DNA of 55,755 nt from Candidatus Aciduliprofundum sp. (GTDB lineage Archaea; Thermoplasmatota; Thermoplasmata; Thermoplasmatales; Aciduliprofundaceae). The number at the start of each line of letters is the position of its first letter. The stretch's first letter is position 1. Location of the stretch: NCBI GenBank assembly GCA_015520565.1, contig WAPW01000006.1, forward strand, positions 1 to 55,755. The letters run 5' to 3'. Positions 39,611-47,010 of the stretch are shown here, one piece after another. The position numbers were made by a program, and so were the translations under genes. The notes under the pieces are model-generated. The model made no database searches. It worked only from the letters and a program-made list of their open reading frames with translations, and had not been told where the DNA came from.

Positions 39611-41080
39611 ATGAGAGCACTCATTAGCGTTTCAGATAAATCAGGACTGGAAGATTTTGCAAAATTCTTAGCCCAGAAAGGATACGAAATAATCGCCACG
39701 GGAGGAACTAAAAGATTTTTGGAGGAAAGAGGAATAAGGGCAATCTCCGTGGAAGAAATAACGGGCTATCCTGAAATTTTGAATGGCAGGGTAAAGACAC
39801 TACATCCTGCAATCCATGGAGCAATTTTGGCTGAGAAGAATGAGGATTTGGATAAGTACAATCTCAAGGGCATTGATATGGTAGTTGTGAATCTTTACCC
39901 CTTTGAGAAGAATATAGGAAACGAGAGAGATATGATTGAGAATATTGACATTGGGGGCGTGGCCCTTCTAAGAGCAGCCGCCAAAAATTACAAGAGGGTG
40001 CTTGTAGTATCCTCACCTTCCCAGTACAAAGAGGTCATGGATGCAATGGAAAGAGGAGAAATAAATGAAGATTTCAGAAGAGAATATGCACTGGAGGCAT
40101 TTGCATTAACCGCCTCTTACGACAGCATAATTTACAATGCATTCTGGAACAAATTTTACGAGGGTATGCCAGAGCATTTCCTGTATCATTCAAAGAAAAA
40201 AATGGAGCTAAGATATGGGGAGAATCCGCACCAGAAGGGTGCGCTATATATGGATGGAAATGTAGAATGGGAGCAGTTGCATGGAAAAAAATTGTCCTTT
40301 AACAATCTATACGATATGGATGCCGCTTGGAACATTGTGATGGAATTTGATAGACCTGCAGTGGCCATAATAAAGCATACAAACCCATGCGGTGCAGCAT
40401 TGGGCGAAGATGTGAAAGAGGCCTATATGAAAGCTCTAAAGGGGGACCCAATATCCGCATACGGCAGCATAGTAGCTTCAAACAAAAAAGTGGATGGAGA
40501 GGCAGCAAAGGAGATGAAAAAATTGTTTATTGAAGTCCTAATTGCTCCTGATTTTACCCAAGATGCTTTAGAGATTTTAGAGAAGAAAAAGAATATAAGG
40601 ATAATAAAAGTCAAAAAATGGAAAAAAGAGGGGTGGAATTTGAGAAGAATAGATGGGGGAATCTTGGTTCAGAACTGGGACACAAAAAAATTGGATGAGG
40701 TAAAATGCGTATCTAAGAGAATGCCCAATGAGAATGAGATGCGTGATTTAATATTCGCTTGGAGCATTGTTAGGTATGTGAAAAGCAACGCAATAGTTTT
40801 TGCAAAGAATGAGGCATTGGTGGGTGTTGGCGCAGGGCAGATGAGCCGTGTAGATTCTGTAAAAATAGCAGCTATGAAGGCAGGTGATAGAGCTAAGGGT
40901 GCAGTTATGGCATCCGATGCATTCTTCCCATTCAGAGACGCAATAGATGAAGCAGCAAAGGTTGGAGTAACAGCCGTGATTCAGCCAGGGGGCTCAAAGA
41001 GGGACAAGGAGGTTATAGAGGCAATAGATGAGCACAATATGGCAATGCTATTCACAGGATTTAGAGTATTCAGGCATTGA
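39611..41080 (+). CDS. purH: Bifunctional AICAR formyltransferase/IMP cyclohydrolase PurH
   Basis: ALISVSDKSGLEDFAKFL, GGTKRFLEERGI, VVNLYPFEK, KHTNPCGAA. Confidence 0.97.
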   Translation: MRALISVSDKSGLEDFAKFLAQKGYEIIATGGTKRFLEERGIRAISVEEITGYPEILNGRVKTLHPAIHGAILAEKNEDLDKYNLKGIDMVVVNLYPFEKNIGNERDMIENIDIGGVALLRAAAKNYKRVLVVSSPSQYKEVMDAMERGEINEDFRREYALEAFALTASYDSIIYNAFWNKFYEGMPEHFLYHSKKKMELRYGENPHQKGALYMDGNVEWEQLHGKKLSFNNLYDMDAAWNIVMEFDRPAVAIIKHTNPCGAALGEDVKEAYMKALKGDPISAYGSIVASNKKVDGEAAKEMKKLFIEVLIAPDFTQDALEILEKKKNIRIIKVKKWKKEGWNLRRIDGGILVQNWDTKKLDEVKCVSKRMPNENEMRDLIFAWSIVRYVKSNAIVFAKNEALVGVGAGQMSRVDSVKIAAMKAGDRAKGAVMASDAFFPFRDAIDEAAKVGVTAVIQPGGSKRDKEVIEAIDEHNMAMLFTGFRVFRH

Positions 41081-41090
41081 GGTGACCAAT

Positions 41091-42251
41091 ATGTATTTGA
41101 CAAAAGAGGAAGAGAGAATTTTAGACGGAGAGTATGGGGAGAATTACGCAAAGATGATGAACATCCTTGTGAAGATTGGCGAAATTTACGGGGCAGATAA
41201 GCTTATACCAATAACATCCGCTCAATTATCTGGTGTATCATACAACACGATTGGTGATGCGGGCTTGCATTTCCTTAACTCCTTAAAAAATGTAAAAGTC
41301 GCAGTTAAAACAACATTAAATCCCCTAGCATTTGATGAGAGATACTTGGATGCTCTCCAAGTTGATGCTACACTATTTAAAAAACAGATGGAGATAATAA
41401 AAGCTTACAAAAATATGGGCGTTAAGACCACTGCCACTTGCACACCTTACTACTACGACAACATTCCAAAATTCGGAGAGCATATAGCTTGGGCCGAGAG
41501 CTCAGCAGTCATATATGCAAATTCAATTATAGGGGCAAGAACAAATAGAGAGGGTGCTGTAACAGCCCTAGCTTCTGCGATAATAGGCAAGACCCCAAAC
41601 TATGGACTTCATTTAGATGAAGAAAGAAAAGCAACGCACATAGTAGAATTAGATTTTCAACCAGAGGGAGAAGATTTTCCGCTAATAGGCCTGCACATAG
41701 GGAAGAAAGTTCAAGGTATACCATACCTGAAAATTAAGGGAGATAACGATGATTTCAAGCTAATGGGCGCAGCTATGGCCGCCTCTGGAAGCATAGCAAT
41801 GTACCATGTTGAGAATTTAACTCCTGAATACAAAAATGCAATCCAAGGAAATTTGGAGAGAATAGAAATAGAAAAAAATGAGATCGAAAAAATGAAAAAA
41901 AGTGTGGATGTAGAGCTGGTTGCAATAGGATGCCCTCATGTATCGCCCTCAGAGTTAAGAAAGATTGCAGAATTTGTAAAGGGAAAGAAAAAGAAGAGAG
42001 GTGTGGAATTTTGGGTTTTCGCTGCCAGAAGCGTCTGGGAAAATCACAAAGAGCTGATCAAAATAATAGAGAATTTTGGTGGTAAGGTTATGGTTGATAC
42101 CTGCGTTGTGGTTAGTAATGCGGGCAAGATATTCCACAAAATAGGAACTACATCTGGAAAAGCGGCATTCTACCTGAGCAAGGATAAATTTGGAGGAGCA
42201 GAAGTGGTTGTTAAAGATTTATATACTCTTTTACGGAGCGTGATAGAATGA
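41091..42251 (+). CDS. Aconitase X catalytic (large) subunit, probable phosphomevalonate dehydratase large subunit
   Basis: MYLTKEEERILDGEYGENYAKMMNIL...ITSAQLSGVSYNTIGDAGL; followed by DUF126 small subunit. Confidence 0.92.
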   Translation: MYLTKEEERILDGEYGENYAKMMNILVKIGEIYGADKLIPITSAQLSGVSYNTIGDAGLHFLNSLKNVKVAVKTTLNPLAFDERYLDALQVDATLFKKQMEIIKAYKNMGVKTTATCTPYYYDNIPKFGEHIAWAESSAVIYANSIIGARTNREGAVTALASAIIGKTPNYGLHLDEERKATHIVELDFQPEGEDFPLIGLHIGKKVQGIPYLKIKGDNDDFKLMGAAMAASGSIAMYHVENLTPEYKNAIQGNLERIEIEKNEIEKMKKSVDVELVAIGCPHVSPSELRKIAEFVKGKKKKRGVEFWVFAARSVWENHKELIKIIENFGGKVMVDTCVVVSNAGKIFHKIGTTSGKAAFYLSKDKFGGAEVVVKDLYTLLRSVIE

Positions 42252-42610
42252 TCTTAAAGGGAAGGAGCATAGTAGAGGGCTCTACGGAGGGAGAAGTAGT
42301 AAAATTTGATAAACCATTGGTAATTTTGAGCGATATTGACGAGAAAAAAGGGGAAATATTAGGAAGGGATATAAAGGGGAAAATCGTGGTATTTCCATGG
42401 GGTGCAGGAAGTACCGTGGGCTCATACACAATATACGGATTGAAGTATTATGGCAATTCACCAAAAGCATTCATTCTTAAAAAGGCAGAGACAATTGTTG
42501 CCGCAGGAGCAATAATAGCCAATATACCAACAGTGGACAAAATAGATATATCCAAGATAAGAGATGGAGCTCATGTAATCATTAGAAACAACGAGATTGA
42601 AATTAAATGA
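42248..42610 (+). CDS. Aconitase X swivel (DUF126, small) subunit, probable phosphomevalonate dehydratase small subunit
   Basis: GRSIVEGSTEGEVVKFDKPL...FPWGAGSTVGSYTIYGL. Confidence 0.92.
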   Translation: MILKGRSIVEGSTEGEVVKFDKPLVILSDIDEKKGEILGRDIKGKIVVFPWGAGSTVGSYTIYGLKYYGNSPKAFILKKAETIVAAGAIIANIPTVDKIDISKIRDGAHVIIRNNEIEIK

Positions 42611-45600
42611 TTATTTGACCTCTCCATCCACATACTTCATTATCTCGCCCATTTCAAAGGCCTCCAATTCTTCTATATTGAAGAACAAATAGGCCTCTTT
42701 CTCCTTTAATTTTTCTTTCATCTCGCCTATCATCTGAAGGAGCTTGTCAAGGCCATTTATAGCCAATAAGAGATCAAAGCAATCTACTATTATCAACTTT
42801 CCTCCTTTATCCAAGAATTTTAAAACACTGTCTTTTAACTTATCCAGCTCTTTTGGCTTTATTGTATTGCCAAAGGGTACATAAGAAATCCATAATGTCT
42901 CTACATTTTTAAGCTCGTATCTTTTCTTTATCTCCTCTGGGTCATCCTTTGTTATGAGCATTTTTCTCTCTTTCATTAAATCTTCTGGTATTCTATCCAT
43001 CATTTTATCAAGATCACCACGGAATAGGTATACATTTCCCTTCTTTATCCTTTTCTCTTCTATCTTCACCCTAATGGGAGCACCGCATCTTGGACAAAAA
43101 TCGTCCTCAGGAGCTAATTCTGCACCGCAGAATGGACAATACTCCTTATTTTTCTCCTTTTTAGGTTTGAAGGCAGTAGAATAAATATAATCAATAATAT
43201 CTCTAGCGAGATTAATTGGAATACCTGTAGTATCAGCTAGCTGCTCTGGATCTGCCTCCATCAAATCATATACGCTTCCATACCCCATATTAAAAAGCAG
43301 TTCTGCTCTAGCATCGTCAATACCTGGTATGCTTTTAAATGCCTTAATTACCCAACGCTTGAATAGGGGGTTTATTCCAATAGTAATTCTATATCCCATT
43401 ATGGGCCACTCAACAATGTATCCATATTCTGTATAGCTAAATTCAATATTTCTTGCCAAACATTTCTCTCTAATCTCATCATCATAGCCCCTTATCATTT
43501 TTATAGCTTCAGGATCTCCAGATATGCTCACATCAATCAGGTCATCAAAATCCATCTCAATATCCTTTCTCATAGAGTTAATTCTTCTTATAATTTCCCT
43601 TACCAATTTTATTCTCTGGGTTGTAGCATCCTGCTCACTTTGAATATAAATGTCTCCGTACTTAAATTCTATGTGCTTATAACCCTCGGGCACCTTTTTT
43701 ATGTACTTTATCATATTCGGAGTTATTTTTATGATGAAACCTTCAATTCCAAGAGTGTATCCTCCCTTCTCCATAGCATCTACTATTTCTTTCATATTTT
43801 TTCTGCGAAGTAAGAAAGCTATTTTAGGGGCCCAAGCCCTATAGGATGCGCTTATTTCTTCCATATTTGGCTCAATCTCTATTTCCATTTCATTCCATTC
43901 TTCAGTTACTTGAAATATTAGTATGTTTTCAACATTCAAAATCAACGGCTTTAAGGGTTCTATATCATCAGCATAGGGTGTTACAAACACGACTTTCTTC
44001 AAAGGTTCCCTTTTTGAAATGTGCATTTTCTCTCTATACTTTCTCAATATCCTCAAAAACTCTCTTAATATATCTATAACCTTCATTTCCTGAGTTTCCC
44101 CTACTTCTAAACTTAAATCCTCTATACCCAGCTTATTTAAATTCTCTTTGGCGAAGTTTGGCATATAAGGATAGAGCATAATGAGAGAATCTTTAATGGG
44201 CCCTAATACTAGTGGATTCTTTCTTTTTAGGGGTATATAAAAATGGGATATATCTTCCACTATATAATCATAAATAATTTGGAACATCTCGGATATTTTC
44301 CCTCCTTTACCCAATTCTCTTATTTGCAACTTTATCTGATTATTTTTCCACTCAAGCCACTCATCTATATCCTCATAGGTAGATGTTGCTCCATAAATGC
44401 TCACATATCTTACAATATTCTCAACAATATTCCTTAACTTCTGAACTTTTTTTAAATTAGATTGATTTATCTCACCCCTCCTTTGTAAGAGCAAAACTGC
44501 CCTTTTAACCTCATCAACCTCAGATGGAACTTTATGCGCTAAATAAATAGTTTTTATAAACAAGTTACGGTAATAAGCTTTTAGCACTCCTTCTAATAAA
44601 ATCTTAATGCGACTCCTTCTTTGATGTAAAAACATCAACGGAGAGGGTTCTTTAAAATTGTGAATATACGCTCCCAAAGCAGATAATTCAGGTTTTAATG
44701 CAAATCTCCTTTCCATTATGCTGCCACAAACAGGGCAATCTTTTATTTTAGAGCCATATTCTATATGACCACAATTAGGGCAATACAAAACAGGAAGTTT
44801 GTAACTACCCTCAGGTGAGGAGATATAAATTGTTTTTTTATTATCTTTCACAACCAAAGCGGGTACATACTCTTCCTTTAAAACATTCCCACATCTAGGG
44901 CATACCTTAATCGGTACCTCTCTTTCCTTAGAATATATAACTGAATATGAGGGTAATCTTCTTTTCAAAAGCCTAGCTTTTACATCGCCCCTTATTATAA
45001 ACTTGCATCTTCCTGAGCCCTTTACCACATAATTTTCAAAATCAAAATTTTCAAGCTCTTCAAAACTTACCTTCCTTATCCTATTTTTAGGCACTTCAAG
45101 CTCATTAATTAAGAAATCTTTTAGTTTGTAAGGAGCAAGCCATGTTTCACCCAGAAGCTCAACAAGAGCATATTTATCATCATAGCCCAAATACACTCCA
45201 ATGGGCTCCTCATCTTCATAAAAATCCCCAATAAAATAAATTCTCTTTCCTATTCTAACCTTAGCTATATTCTCCCTTACTACCCTTTTTATCTCCTTAA
45301 CTTGAGATTCATTATAATGCTCATCGCATTTCTCACAATAGTACATATTTATGCTCTTAACCTTTACTTTACCCTTTTCCAAGAGCTGTTTTAACAATTT
45401 ATCTATATCCCTTATAAACTCCTCACCTTCATAGATATTAGCATATGGAGCAATTTCCTTTAATTTACTTATATCGCTCTTGTTTAAAGAGTAAATTATA
45501 TAGTGAATATTGGCTGACTCATTAAAAATCTTAAAAAATTTATATATAAAATCATAATAGATAATCTCATCTAAAATAAATGGAGATAAGGCATCGTAAA

Positions 45601-45634
45601 TAGGATACGAATAAAAGTCCCGACTTTTTTCCAC
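42611..45634 (-). CDS. IleRS-derived pseudo-synthetase fused to HhH, zinc ribbon and DUF835-like domains (1007 aa)
   Basis: Segments collinear with archaeal IleRS (CEKCDEHYNESQVK ~ C..CetaLsdaEVE; YDYIVEDISHFYI ~ anticodon-binding FVvEDLSrWYI; SKREPLKKVVFV; VREIIRRINSMRKDIEMDFDD), but no HIGH or KMSKS. C-terminus has HhH, CPFCG..CPRCG ribbon and a DUF835-like domain. Confidence 0.8.
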   Translation of the reverse strand: MEKSRDFYSYPIYDALSPFILDEIIYYDFIYKFFKIFNESANIHYIIYSLNKSDISKLKEIAPYANIYEGEEFIRDIDKLLKQLLEKGKVKVKSINMYYCEKCDEHYNESQVKEIKRVVRENIAKVRIGKRIYFIGDFYEDEEPIGVYLGYDDKYALVELLGETWLAPYKLKDFLINELEVPKNRIRKVSFEELENFDFENYVVKGSGRCKFIIRGDVKARLLKRRLPSYSVIYSKEREVPIKVCPRCGNVLKEEYVPALVVKDNKKTIYISSPEGSYKLPVLYCPNCGHIEYGSKIKDCPVCGSIMERRFALKPELSALGAYIHNFKEPSPLMFLHQRRSRIKILLEGVLKAYYRNLFIKTIYLAHKVPSEVDEVKRAVLLLQRRGEINQSNLKKVQKLRNIVENIVRYVSIYGATSTYEDIDEWLEWKNNQIKLQIRELGKGGKISEMFQIIYDYIVEDISHFYIPLKRKNPLVLGPIKDSLIMLYPYMPNFAKENLNKLGIEDLSLEVGETQEMKVIDILREFLRILRKYREKMHISKREPLKKVVFVTPYADDIEPLKPLILNVENILIFQVTEEWNEMEIEIEPNMEEISASYRAWAPKIAFLLRRKNMKEIVDAMEKGGYTLGIEGFIIKITPNMIKYIKKVPEGYKHIEFKYGDIYIQSEQDATTQRIKLVREIIRRINSMRKDIEMDFDDLIDVSISGDPEAIKMIRGYDDEIREKCLARNIEFSYTEYGYIVEWPIMGYRITIGINPLFKRWVIKAFKSIPGIDDARAELLFNMGYGSVYDLMEADPEQLADTTGIPINLARDIIDYIYSTAFKPKKEKNKEYCPFCGAELAPEDDFCPRCGAPIRVKIEEKRIKKGNVYLFRGDLDKMMDRIPEDLMKERKMLITKDDPEEIKKRYELKNVETLWISYVPFGNTIKPKELDKLKDSVLKFLDKGGKLIIVDCFDLLLAINGLDKLLQMIGEMKEKLKEKEAYLFFNIEELEAFEMGEIMKYVDGEVK

Positions 45635-45717: not shown

Positions 45718-47010
45718 ATGTTCCAGCACATATCCGATGTACTATCAGACGATTTCATAGGGAAAAAGGTTGCTCTACGAGGATGGATATACAGGAAGAG
45801 GAGAATGGGAAAAATAATATTTGTAGTTCTACGAGATTCTTCAGATATAATCCAATGTGTAGTGGAGAAGAAGAAAATAGGGAATGAAAAATTCAAAGAA
45901 TTGGATAAAGTGGGTGTGGAATCATCGTTGGAGATTAAAGGAGTTGTGAGAAAAGAGGAAAGAGCACCTACAGGGTATGAAGTGGATGTTAATGATATAA
46001 ATATTGTAGGTGCATCTTACCTTTTCCCCATTACGAAGGATAAAAGTGATGAATTTTTGCTAGATAACAGGCATTTATGGCTTAGAAGCAGGGAGATGAA
46101 TGCCATACTTAAAATCAGGCACACCGTATTTGGAGCCATACACGAGTTTTTCAGAGAGAATGGATATTACGAAGTTCAAGGACCTATATTCGTCACGGGA
46201 GCTGTTGAAGGCGGCTCTACATTATTTGAAGTCCCATACTTCGGAAAAAAAGCTTACTTGTCTCAAAGTGCCCAGTTCTACCTTGAAACCTTCATATTCT
46301 CATTGGAGAAAGTTTACACAATTGCGCCGAGCTTTAGGGCAGAGAAGAGTAGAACAAGGAGGCATTTGACAGAGTATTGGCATGCAGAGGGAGAGGTTGC
46401 TTGGTATCACAATGAGGATATGATGAGAAGTGAGGAAGAGCTAATAATGCACATAGTTCAAAAGGTTCTTGAAGAGAGAGAGAAAGAATTGAAATTTTTA
46501 AATAGGAATATAGAAATATTAAAAAATCTGGAAAAACCATTTATAAGGATGAAGTACCAGGAGCTCATAGAATTTGCACAGGAGAATGGAATAAATATAG
46601 AATACGGAGATGACTTAGGTGCAGATGAAGAAACTGCAATAACGAAGAAGTTTGATAAACCAATATTCGTGACACATTATCCCATAGAAATAAAGCCATT
46701 TTACCATAGACCTGATCCCAATAACCCAAGAGTTGTTCTGTGCCACGACCTTCTAGCCCCAGAGGGATACGGAGAAATAATTGGTGGAGGAGAGAGAATA
46801 TACAAATTAGATGTGCTTTTGAAGAGAATGGAAGATGAGGGTCTCGACCCAGAAGATTATTATTGGTATGTTGACTTGCGCAAGTATGGAAGCATCCCCC
46901 ATGCGGGATTTGGCTTAGGAGTTGACCGCCTTGTCTGGTGGCTTGCAGGTCTCTCTCATATAAAATATGCCATACCATATCCAAGAACAATTAGAAGAAC
47001 AAAACCATAA
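45718..47010 (+). CDS. asnS: Asparaginyl-tRNA synthetase
   Basis: OB-fold N-terminus (VALRGWIYRKRRMGKIIFVVLRDSSDIIQ), class II motifs 2 and 3 (FRAEKSRTRRHLTEYWHAEGE; GFGLGVDRLV). Confidence 0.92.
   Translation: MFQHISDVLSDDFIGKKVALRGWIYRKRRMGKIIFVVLRDSSDIIQCVVEKKKIGNEKFKELDKVGVESSLEIKGVVRKEERAPTGYEVDVNDINIVGASYLFPITKDKSDEFLLDNRHLWLRSREMNAILKIRHTVFGAIHEFFRENGYYEVQGPIFVTGAVEGGSTLFEVPYFGKKAYLSQSAQFYLETFIFSLEKVYTIAPSFRAEKSRTRRHLTEYWHAEGEVAWYHNEDMMRSEEELIMHIVQKVLEEREKELKFLNRNIEILKNLEKPFIRMKYQELIEFAQENGINIEYGDDLGADEETAITKKFDKPIFVTHYPIEIKPFYHRPDPNNPRVVLCHDLLAPEGYGEIIGGGERIYKLDVLLKRMEDEGLDPEDYYWYVDLRKYGSIPHAGFGLGVDRLVWWLAGLSHIKYAIPYPRTIRRTKP

Follow-up and report, generated by a model that had tools for sequence, protein, structure and literature searches.

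A catalytically degenerate isoleucyl-tRNA synthetase in Aciduliprofundum, positional orthologue of the fused IleRS of Thermoplasmata, with a candidate non-catalytic role

Introduction

Replacement of one aminoacyl-tRNA synthetase by another is usually taken to mean loss of the old gene. The closest analogue of the case described here appears to be LeuRS-I of the Sulfolobaceae, an archaeal class Ia synthetase paralog that exists beside a working enzyme; the review PMC9437257, drawing on Weitzel et al. 2020, describes a protein that does not charge tRNA and is reported to bind tRNA-Leu and to be critical for optimal growth. It differs from our protein in being a different enzyme and in making leucyl-adenylate, so that its active site survives, and it has a disrupted CP1 and a divergent acidic C-terminus; the same review mentions no helix-hairpin-helix (HhH), zinc-ribbon or DUF835 tail and describes no class-wide graded decay (PMC9437257). 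LeuRS2 of the Halobacteria is likewise a second synthetase of drastically reduced activity that has kept its tRNA affinity, but it still aminoacylates weakly (PMC9437257). SbzA, from altemicidin biosynthesis, is an IleRS-derived protein with a non-canonical role, but it is bacterial and a catalytic aminoacyl transferase (PMC9437257). Priestia megaterium IleRS2 (8c8v; PMC10485003) gave the best whole-length structural match to our protein, and the separate IleRS of the same genome is of the IleRS2 type, but the Priestia protein is an active enzyme with no HhH/DUF835 tail. Finally, the fused IleRSs of other Thermoplasmata, including Methanomassiliicoccales-type genomes (L049, L053, L054 and others), share the domain order and AcnX neighbours of our gene but have intact HxGT/MSKS motifs and an editing domain, are 1240-1560 aa long and are usually the sole IleRS. 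No report of a retired fused IleRS was found in the open-access papers searched.

The window analysed here is a 55,755-nt stretch of DNA from an Aciduliprofundum/DHVE2-type genome, and the gene of interest lies at 42611-45634 on its minus strand. It was placed in a survey of 300 genomes of the class Thermoplasmata, most of them MAGs, in which families and genera carry arbitrary codes (f1, f2, g20 and so on); the window gene belongs to family f1.

Results

The window protein has an IleRS fold and lacks the catalytic motifs

The 1007-aa open reading frame proposed in the initial annotation was confirmed, with GTG as its start codon; its G+C content is 34.0%, against 38.6% for the whole window. 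Its features, all on the minus strand, are as follows.

42611..45634, minus strand: degenerate ileS orthologue, 1007-aa pseudo-synthetase (Pfam, profile comparison, locus, AlphaFold, Foldseek)
45365..45634, minus strand: aa 1-90, what is left of the catalytic Rossmann (HUP) domain's first half, without HIGH (alternating strand/helix in the AlphaFold model; homology via family f3)
44885..45364, minus strand: aa 91-250, CP1/editing domain in reduced form, containing the CxxC pairs C100/C103 and C245/C248 (little or no variation in the Cys columns; 5% of the domain's invariant residues retained)
44705..44797, minus strand: aa 280-310, CP2 region with CxxC pairs C285/C288 and C300/C303 (profile alignment, Cys columns)
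44435..44704, minus strand: aa 311-400, what is left of the catalytic domain's second half, without KMSKS (alignment gapped in the KMSKS columns; 9% of the invariant residues retained)
43991..44365, minus strand: aa 424-548, Anticodon_1 domain (PF08264, E 1.5e-9)
43379..43939, minus strand: aa 566-752, DUF5915, the IleRS C-terminal domain (PF19302, E 1.9e-14; 60% of invariant residues kept)
43190..43339, minus strand: aa 766-815, helix-hairpin-helix module, HHH_5 (PF14520, E 1.3e-7; most conserved region within f1, 74% mean identity)
43073..43141, minus strand: aa 832-854, zinc ribbon, C833/C836 and C847/C850 (PF13240 and PF12773; Cys invariant in f1 and f3)
42614..43042, minus strand: aa 865-1007, DUF835, FlaH/KaiC-like RecA fold (PF05763, E 7.6e-18; AlphaFold pLDDT 93; Foldseek to FlaH/KaiC)

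The absence of HIGH and KMSKS, also noted initially, was borne out: both motifs (HIGH as HxGH or HxGT) are missing from 9/9 f1 members, in which the HIGH columns are occupied by SPFI or similar, and a Pfam scan of the 1007-aa protein gave no match to the synthetase catalytic domain PF00133 at E<=1. Its NCBIfam matches are fragments of ValRS, MetRS and IleRS models only, and it scores 14.8 bits on TIGR00392, over aa 389-472 only, below the 621-bit equivalog cut-off that we took as the criterion for a functional IleRS.

A search of the window protein against PDB sequences gave nothing convincing (RadA HhH 0.0045, IleRS 0.1), and it was the structural search that settled its identity as an IleRS. 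With the AlphaFold model (built from 33 sequences; pLDDT 85.7, pTM 0.56) as the Foldseek query, IleRS structures made up the 12 best and 19 of the 20 best PDB matches, a single ValRS standing at rank 13, and the top match, 8c8v, aligned with E 3e-38 over 1004 columns. The TM-scores are modest (0.46), which is to be expected of a multidomain protein with shifted domains and a C-terminal addition. The dominance of IleRS structures in these ranks upholds the initial description of a degenerate full-length IleRS.

Profile-profile alignment of the nine f1 sequences with intact fused IleRSs agreed, pairing aa 284-1010 with positions 482-1418 of the latter (713 columns, E 2.7e-83) through the end of DUF835. 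The first 300 residues of f1 match the intact enzymes weakly (E 0.005 in a direct N-terminal profile comparison), so family f3 was needed as a bridge: this region matches f3 with E 9e-21, and the f3 profile aligns to the intact enzymes from the first CxxC pair onward with E 7e-62. We conclude that the window protein has the fold and descent of a class Ia IleRS and, judged by the state of its motifs, is predicted to be catalytically dead.

Two details of the initial annotation needed correction. The CxxC pairs had been read as extra; this was rejected, as the four pairs C100/C103, C245/C248, C285/C288 and C300/C303 are common to intact IleRS relatives and show little or no variation among intact and dead members alike. 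The motif assignment also changes, SVIYSKEREVPIKVCPRCG corresponding to the 'HCWRC' knuckle and SYKLPVLYCPNCG being the equivalent of 'SRQRYWG.P.PVW.C.CG'.

The window gene is the positional orthologue of a fused Thermoplasmata IleRS

Across the survey, many families encode an IleRS of 1240-1560 aa with HxGT and MSKS motifs, followed by DUF5915 and varying combinations of HhH, zinc ribbon and DUF835 (type A). We call these enzymes intact because the motifs are present, their activity being predicted from sequence; those scanned scored 953-969 bits on TIGR00392. Since intact fused enzymes carry them, the HhH, zinc-ribbon and DUF835 modules belong to the ancestral enzyme, and the window protein keeps the type A order of anticodon domain, DUF5915, HhH, zinc ribbon and DUF835.

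The neighbouring genes of the window are as follows.

41028..42251, plus strand: AcnX large subunit gene, synteny marker (PF04412)
42248..42610, plus strand: AcnX small (swivel) subunit gene, convergent with the ileS orthologue and used as a synteny marker (PF01989)
45718..47010, plus strand: AsnRS gene, divergent neighbour (PF00152)

The window gene thus lies tail-to-tail with the AcnX subunit genes, and the 83 bp between its start and that of the AsnRS gene at 45718 are as first reported. The intact fused gene also has AcnX neighbours in f6, f9, f12, f16, f17, f20-23, f28 and f30-33 (in f12 and f28 only the small subunit), and in f4 genus g21 the AcnX genes stand beside a 689-aa remnant that is followed by AsnRS, as in the window; AsnRS adjoins the gene in f4 g21 and in some f3 and f10 genomes. 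Common AcnX neighbours at the intact and the dead gene indicate positional orthology. In a tree of the anticodon and DUF5915 regions, the 26 rows of a second type of IleRS (type B, below) formed one clade (SH-aLRT 99), and the window gene, with the rest of f1, fell among type A. The window gene is the orthologue, at the same locus, of the type A fused IleRS of Thermoplasmata.

The earlier view of an IleRS pseudo-paralog is right insofar as the protein is degenerate, lacks the catalytic motifs and occurs in a genome with a separate, functional-looking ileS, but the gene is a positional orthologue of the fused IleRS and not a stray paralog. The related idea of modules appended to a dead paralog was rejected on account of the fused intact relatives and the common locus: in many other Thermoplasmata, intact-looking fused IleRSs ordinarily end in HhH, zinc ribbon and DUF835.

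Further observations were made at loci of this kind. L251 (G249, f4 g21) carries AcnX-L, AcnX-S, the 689-aa ileS remnant, AsnRS and a second IleRS gene within about 10 kb. Large proteins ending in a DUF5915-like region outside any synthetase are encoded at L043:8492-10999(-), L057:9238-16134(-), L058:2134-9057(+) and L253:11926-17874(-), with CARDB matches in the two scanned with Pfam; in f20, f17 and f19 the gene next to the fused ileS on its upstream side encodes a large DUF5915-ended protein.

A second IleRS is present in the host and in related families

The genome search for a separate canonical ileS, proposed with the initial annotation, found one. The genome that holds the window has a single IleRS above the TIGR00392 cut-off, on contig C53, which scores 978 bits and contains HIGH and KMSKSK. 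It is a synthetase separate and intact for the same amino acid, as in the LeuRS-I case. Its closest PDB relative is Priestia IleRS2 (1034 bits, versus 417 for an IleRS1), and from these features the charging enzyme of the host is predicted to be this IleRS2-like protein. Type B enzymes were found in f1, f2, f3, f4, f6, f7, f10, f15, f19, f24, f27 and f29, and in a more divergent form in f13. The fused gene was not found in the genomes of f2, f4 genus g20 or f13.

This distribution bears on whether the window protein might assist the second IleRS as an accessory subunit, helping in trans with charging or proofreading by binding either the enzyme or the tRNA that it shares with it. Both genes co-occur in about ten families, and in f4 g21 they lie within about 3 kb of each other. 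However, second IleRSs work without the fused gene in f2, f4 g20 and f13, and in the window's own genome the two genes are on separate contigs, and we regard an accessory role as improbable.

As a separate observation, contigs C43 and C50 (L003, L004) of the window's genome carry two LeuRS genes that are 95.9% identical, one of them on a 3-kb contig. This pair probably reflects strain mixture in the assembly (3.95% contamination) and not duplication.

The fused gene is found in graded states of decay

In about ten families with a second IleRS, the fused gene has suffered damage. The one exception, f6, has both IleRSs intact, and a strict rule that a second IleRS means a dead type A was accordingly rejected. 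In f27, HIGH is retained and KMSKS lost; in f15, f19 and f24, KMSKS is lost and HIGH altered or partly retained; in f7, f10 and f29 both motifs are lost from proteins of 1300-1600 aa; and core-shrunk forms occur in f1 (1007 aa), f3 (~930 aa) and f4 g21 (689 aa), those of f3 and f4 g21 being without DUF835. The succession suggested by these states would be loss of KMSKS, then of HIGH, then shrinkage of the core. Sampled genomes without a second IleRS carry both motifs, except for incomplete or partial sequences (f11, f18 G015, f26). G066 (f24, 74% complete) has a dead type A gene and a partial intact A-type IleRS, with no type B detected. A first sign of harm to the fused gene is seen in f20 genus g44, where MSKS has become LSKS and DQTRGWF has become EQTDGWF.

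In AU tests a single clade of all damaged rows, f20 g44 included, was rejected (p 3e-9), and one clade of the damaged rows other than f20 g44 was compatible with the data (p 0.62). These outcomes imply at least two independent decay events; the large series may go back to a single ancient event, after which the gene decayed lineage by lineage. Many independent decays are unsupported, as the main set may be one clade, and a sign test on independent pairs had too few pairs for significance.

Two genomic contexts are worth recording. In f20 g44 (L268-L270 with L254-L256; G097, G053, G025) the second IleRS is a different one, of 982 aa, with MGVHH in the HIGH region (NNPMGVHHAWGRT); a GXHH-type altered HIGH has been described in mupirocin hyper-resistant bacterial IleRS (PMC10485003). 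At L130:3-8288(-) (G042, f15) the damaged fused ileS lies within an open frame of >2760 aa, far longer than its relatives.

Selective constraint has shifted towards the C-terminal half

Of the residues invariant in intact type A enzymes, f1 retains 8% in HUP-N, 5% in the editing domain, 9% in HUP-C, and far more beyond the catalytic core (anticodon domain 46%, DUF5915 60%); the values for type B, which is intact though distantly related, are 63%, 83%, 76%, 88% and 60%, respectively. Such losses weigh heavily against any proposal that another catalytic activity was kept or gained, be it trans-editing of Val-tRNA-Ile or the transfer of an aminoacyl group to another substrate. There are IleRS-like proteins that catalyse other transfers (SbzA, PMC9437257), but with so few editing and catalytic residues left, and with gaps at the editing and KMSKS columns, we consider this very improbable. 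The retention of anticodon residues at 46%, against 88% between two intact enzymes, suggests that the protein may now differ in its tRNA specificity.

Within f1 mean identity is 40% in the body, 62% in DUF5915 and 74% in HhH, an inversion of the intact sets, where the body is at 71-76% and HhH at 40-67% (mostly 40-45%). The dN/dS of the window gene is 0.07-0.09 from one close pair, distant pairs being saturated, and is lowest, at about 0.03, in the tail. These values indicate that the gene is under clear purifying selection. The suggestion of tRNA or RNA sensing made initially is plausible, and the inverted constraint supports it better than before.

A functionless gene on its way out would fit the failure to find the gene in f2, f4 g20 and f13, and also its faster evolution, the window-type gene being 70% identical where the C53-type enzyme of the same genome pair is 93% identical. 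Set against this are intact ORFs in 9/9 f1 genomes (the other eight 43-70% identical to the window protein), a dN/dS of about 0.08 and a confidently folded AlphaFold model, and we give this explanation almost no credence.

The same data raise the question of whether only the tail works, with HhH, zinc ribbon and DUF835 as a nucleic-acid or signalling module and the body an inert scaffold that has ceased to bind tRNA. The low dN/dS of the tail, the high HhH identity in f1 and the loss of over half of the invariant anticodon residues would be in keeping with this, as would the DUF835 model of the window copy, which matches FlaH and KaiC at E about 1e-4; among the domains of archaeal response regulators, PMC5847659 lists DUF835 as an inactive KaiC (iKaiC). 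Yet DUF5915 is kept as well as it is between two intact IleRSs, the CxxC pairs of the body are conserved, and the f3 and 689-aa f4 forms have dispensed with DUF835 while keeping DUF5915 and the zinc ribbon. A working tail on an inert body therefore seems unlikely to us, though less so than an accessory subunit.

Discussion

The explanation that we favour, to which we attach a probability of roughly 60% as a whole, is that the window gene is a retired fused ileS whose charging function has passed to a second IleRS and whose product has a tRNA-binding, non-catalytic role. The product of the ancestral Thermoplasmata ileS would have been an IleRS with DUF5915, HhH, zinc-ribbon and DUF835 domains attached. 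A second, IleRS2-like enzyme, whether acquired or ancestral, would then have taken over Ile-tRNA charging in this lineage, and the old ileS, still at its old locus, would have shed both HIGH and KMSKS, the greater part of the editing domain and some 400 residues. Purifying selection acting on the C-terminal half and the structural zinc sites would have maintained the retired gene. That the window gene derives from the ancestral fused ileS is highly probable in our judgement.

The later steps are put forward more cautiously. The dead protein would be likely still to bind tRNA, probably tRNA-Ile or a tRNA-like RNA, through its anticodon domain and DUF5915, and could serve in a non-catalytic capacity, for example as a tRNA-responsive regulator or adaptor acting through HhH, the zinc ribbon and the inactive KaiC-like DUF835. 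For a tRNA-binding, non-catalytic job of the window protein we see about an even chance. Such a job was probably already done by the fused ancestor, and it would not be universal, given the families in which the gene was not found and the lack of DUF835 in f3 and the 689-aa f4 form.

In the Thermoplasmata, a displaced ileS persists at its locus, and its intermediate states form a series: still intact although a second enzyme is present, with KMSKS lost, with both motifs lost, with the core shrunk, and with the gene gone. Since these states are preserved, they show directly in what order the parts of a synthetase are lost. They also point to a second function, so far undescribed, for the IleRS-DUF835 fusion. 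It is possible, at somewhat less than even odds, that the fused Thermoplasmata IleRS is bifunctional, combining charging with a non-catalytic signalling role in which its HhH, zinc-ribbon and DUF835 parts respond to tRNA or RNA, and that the dead synthetase has been kept for the latter over the diversification of about ten families.
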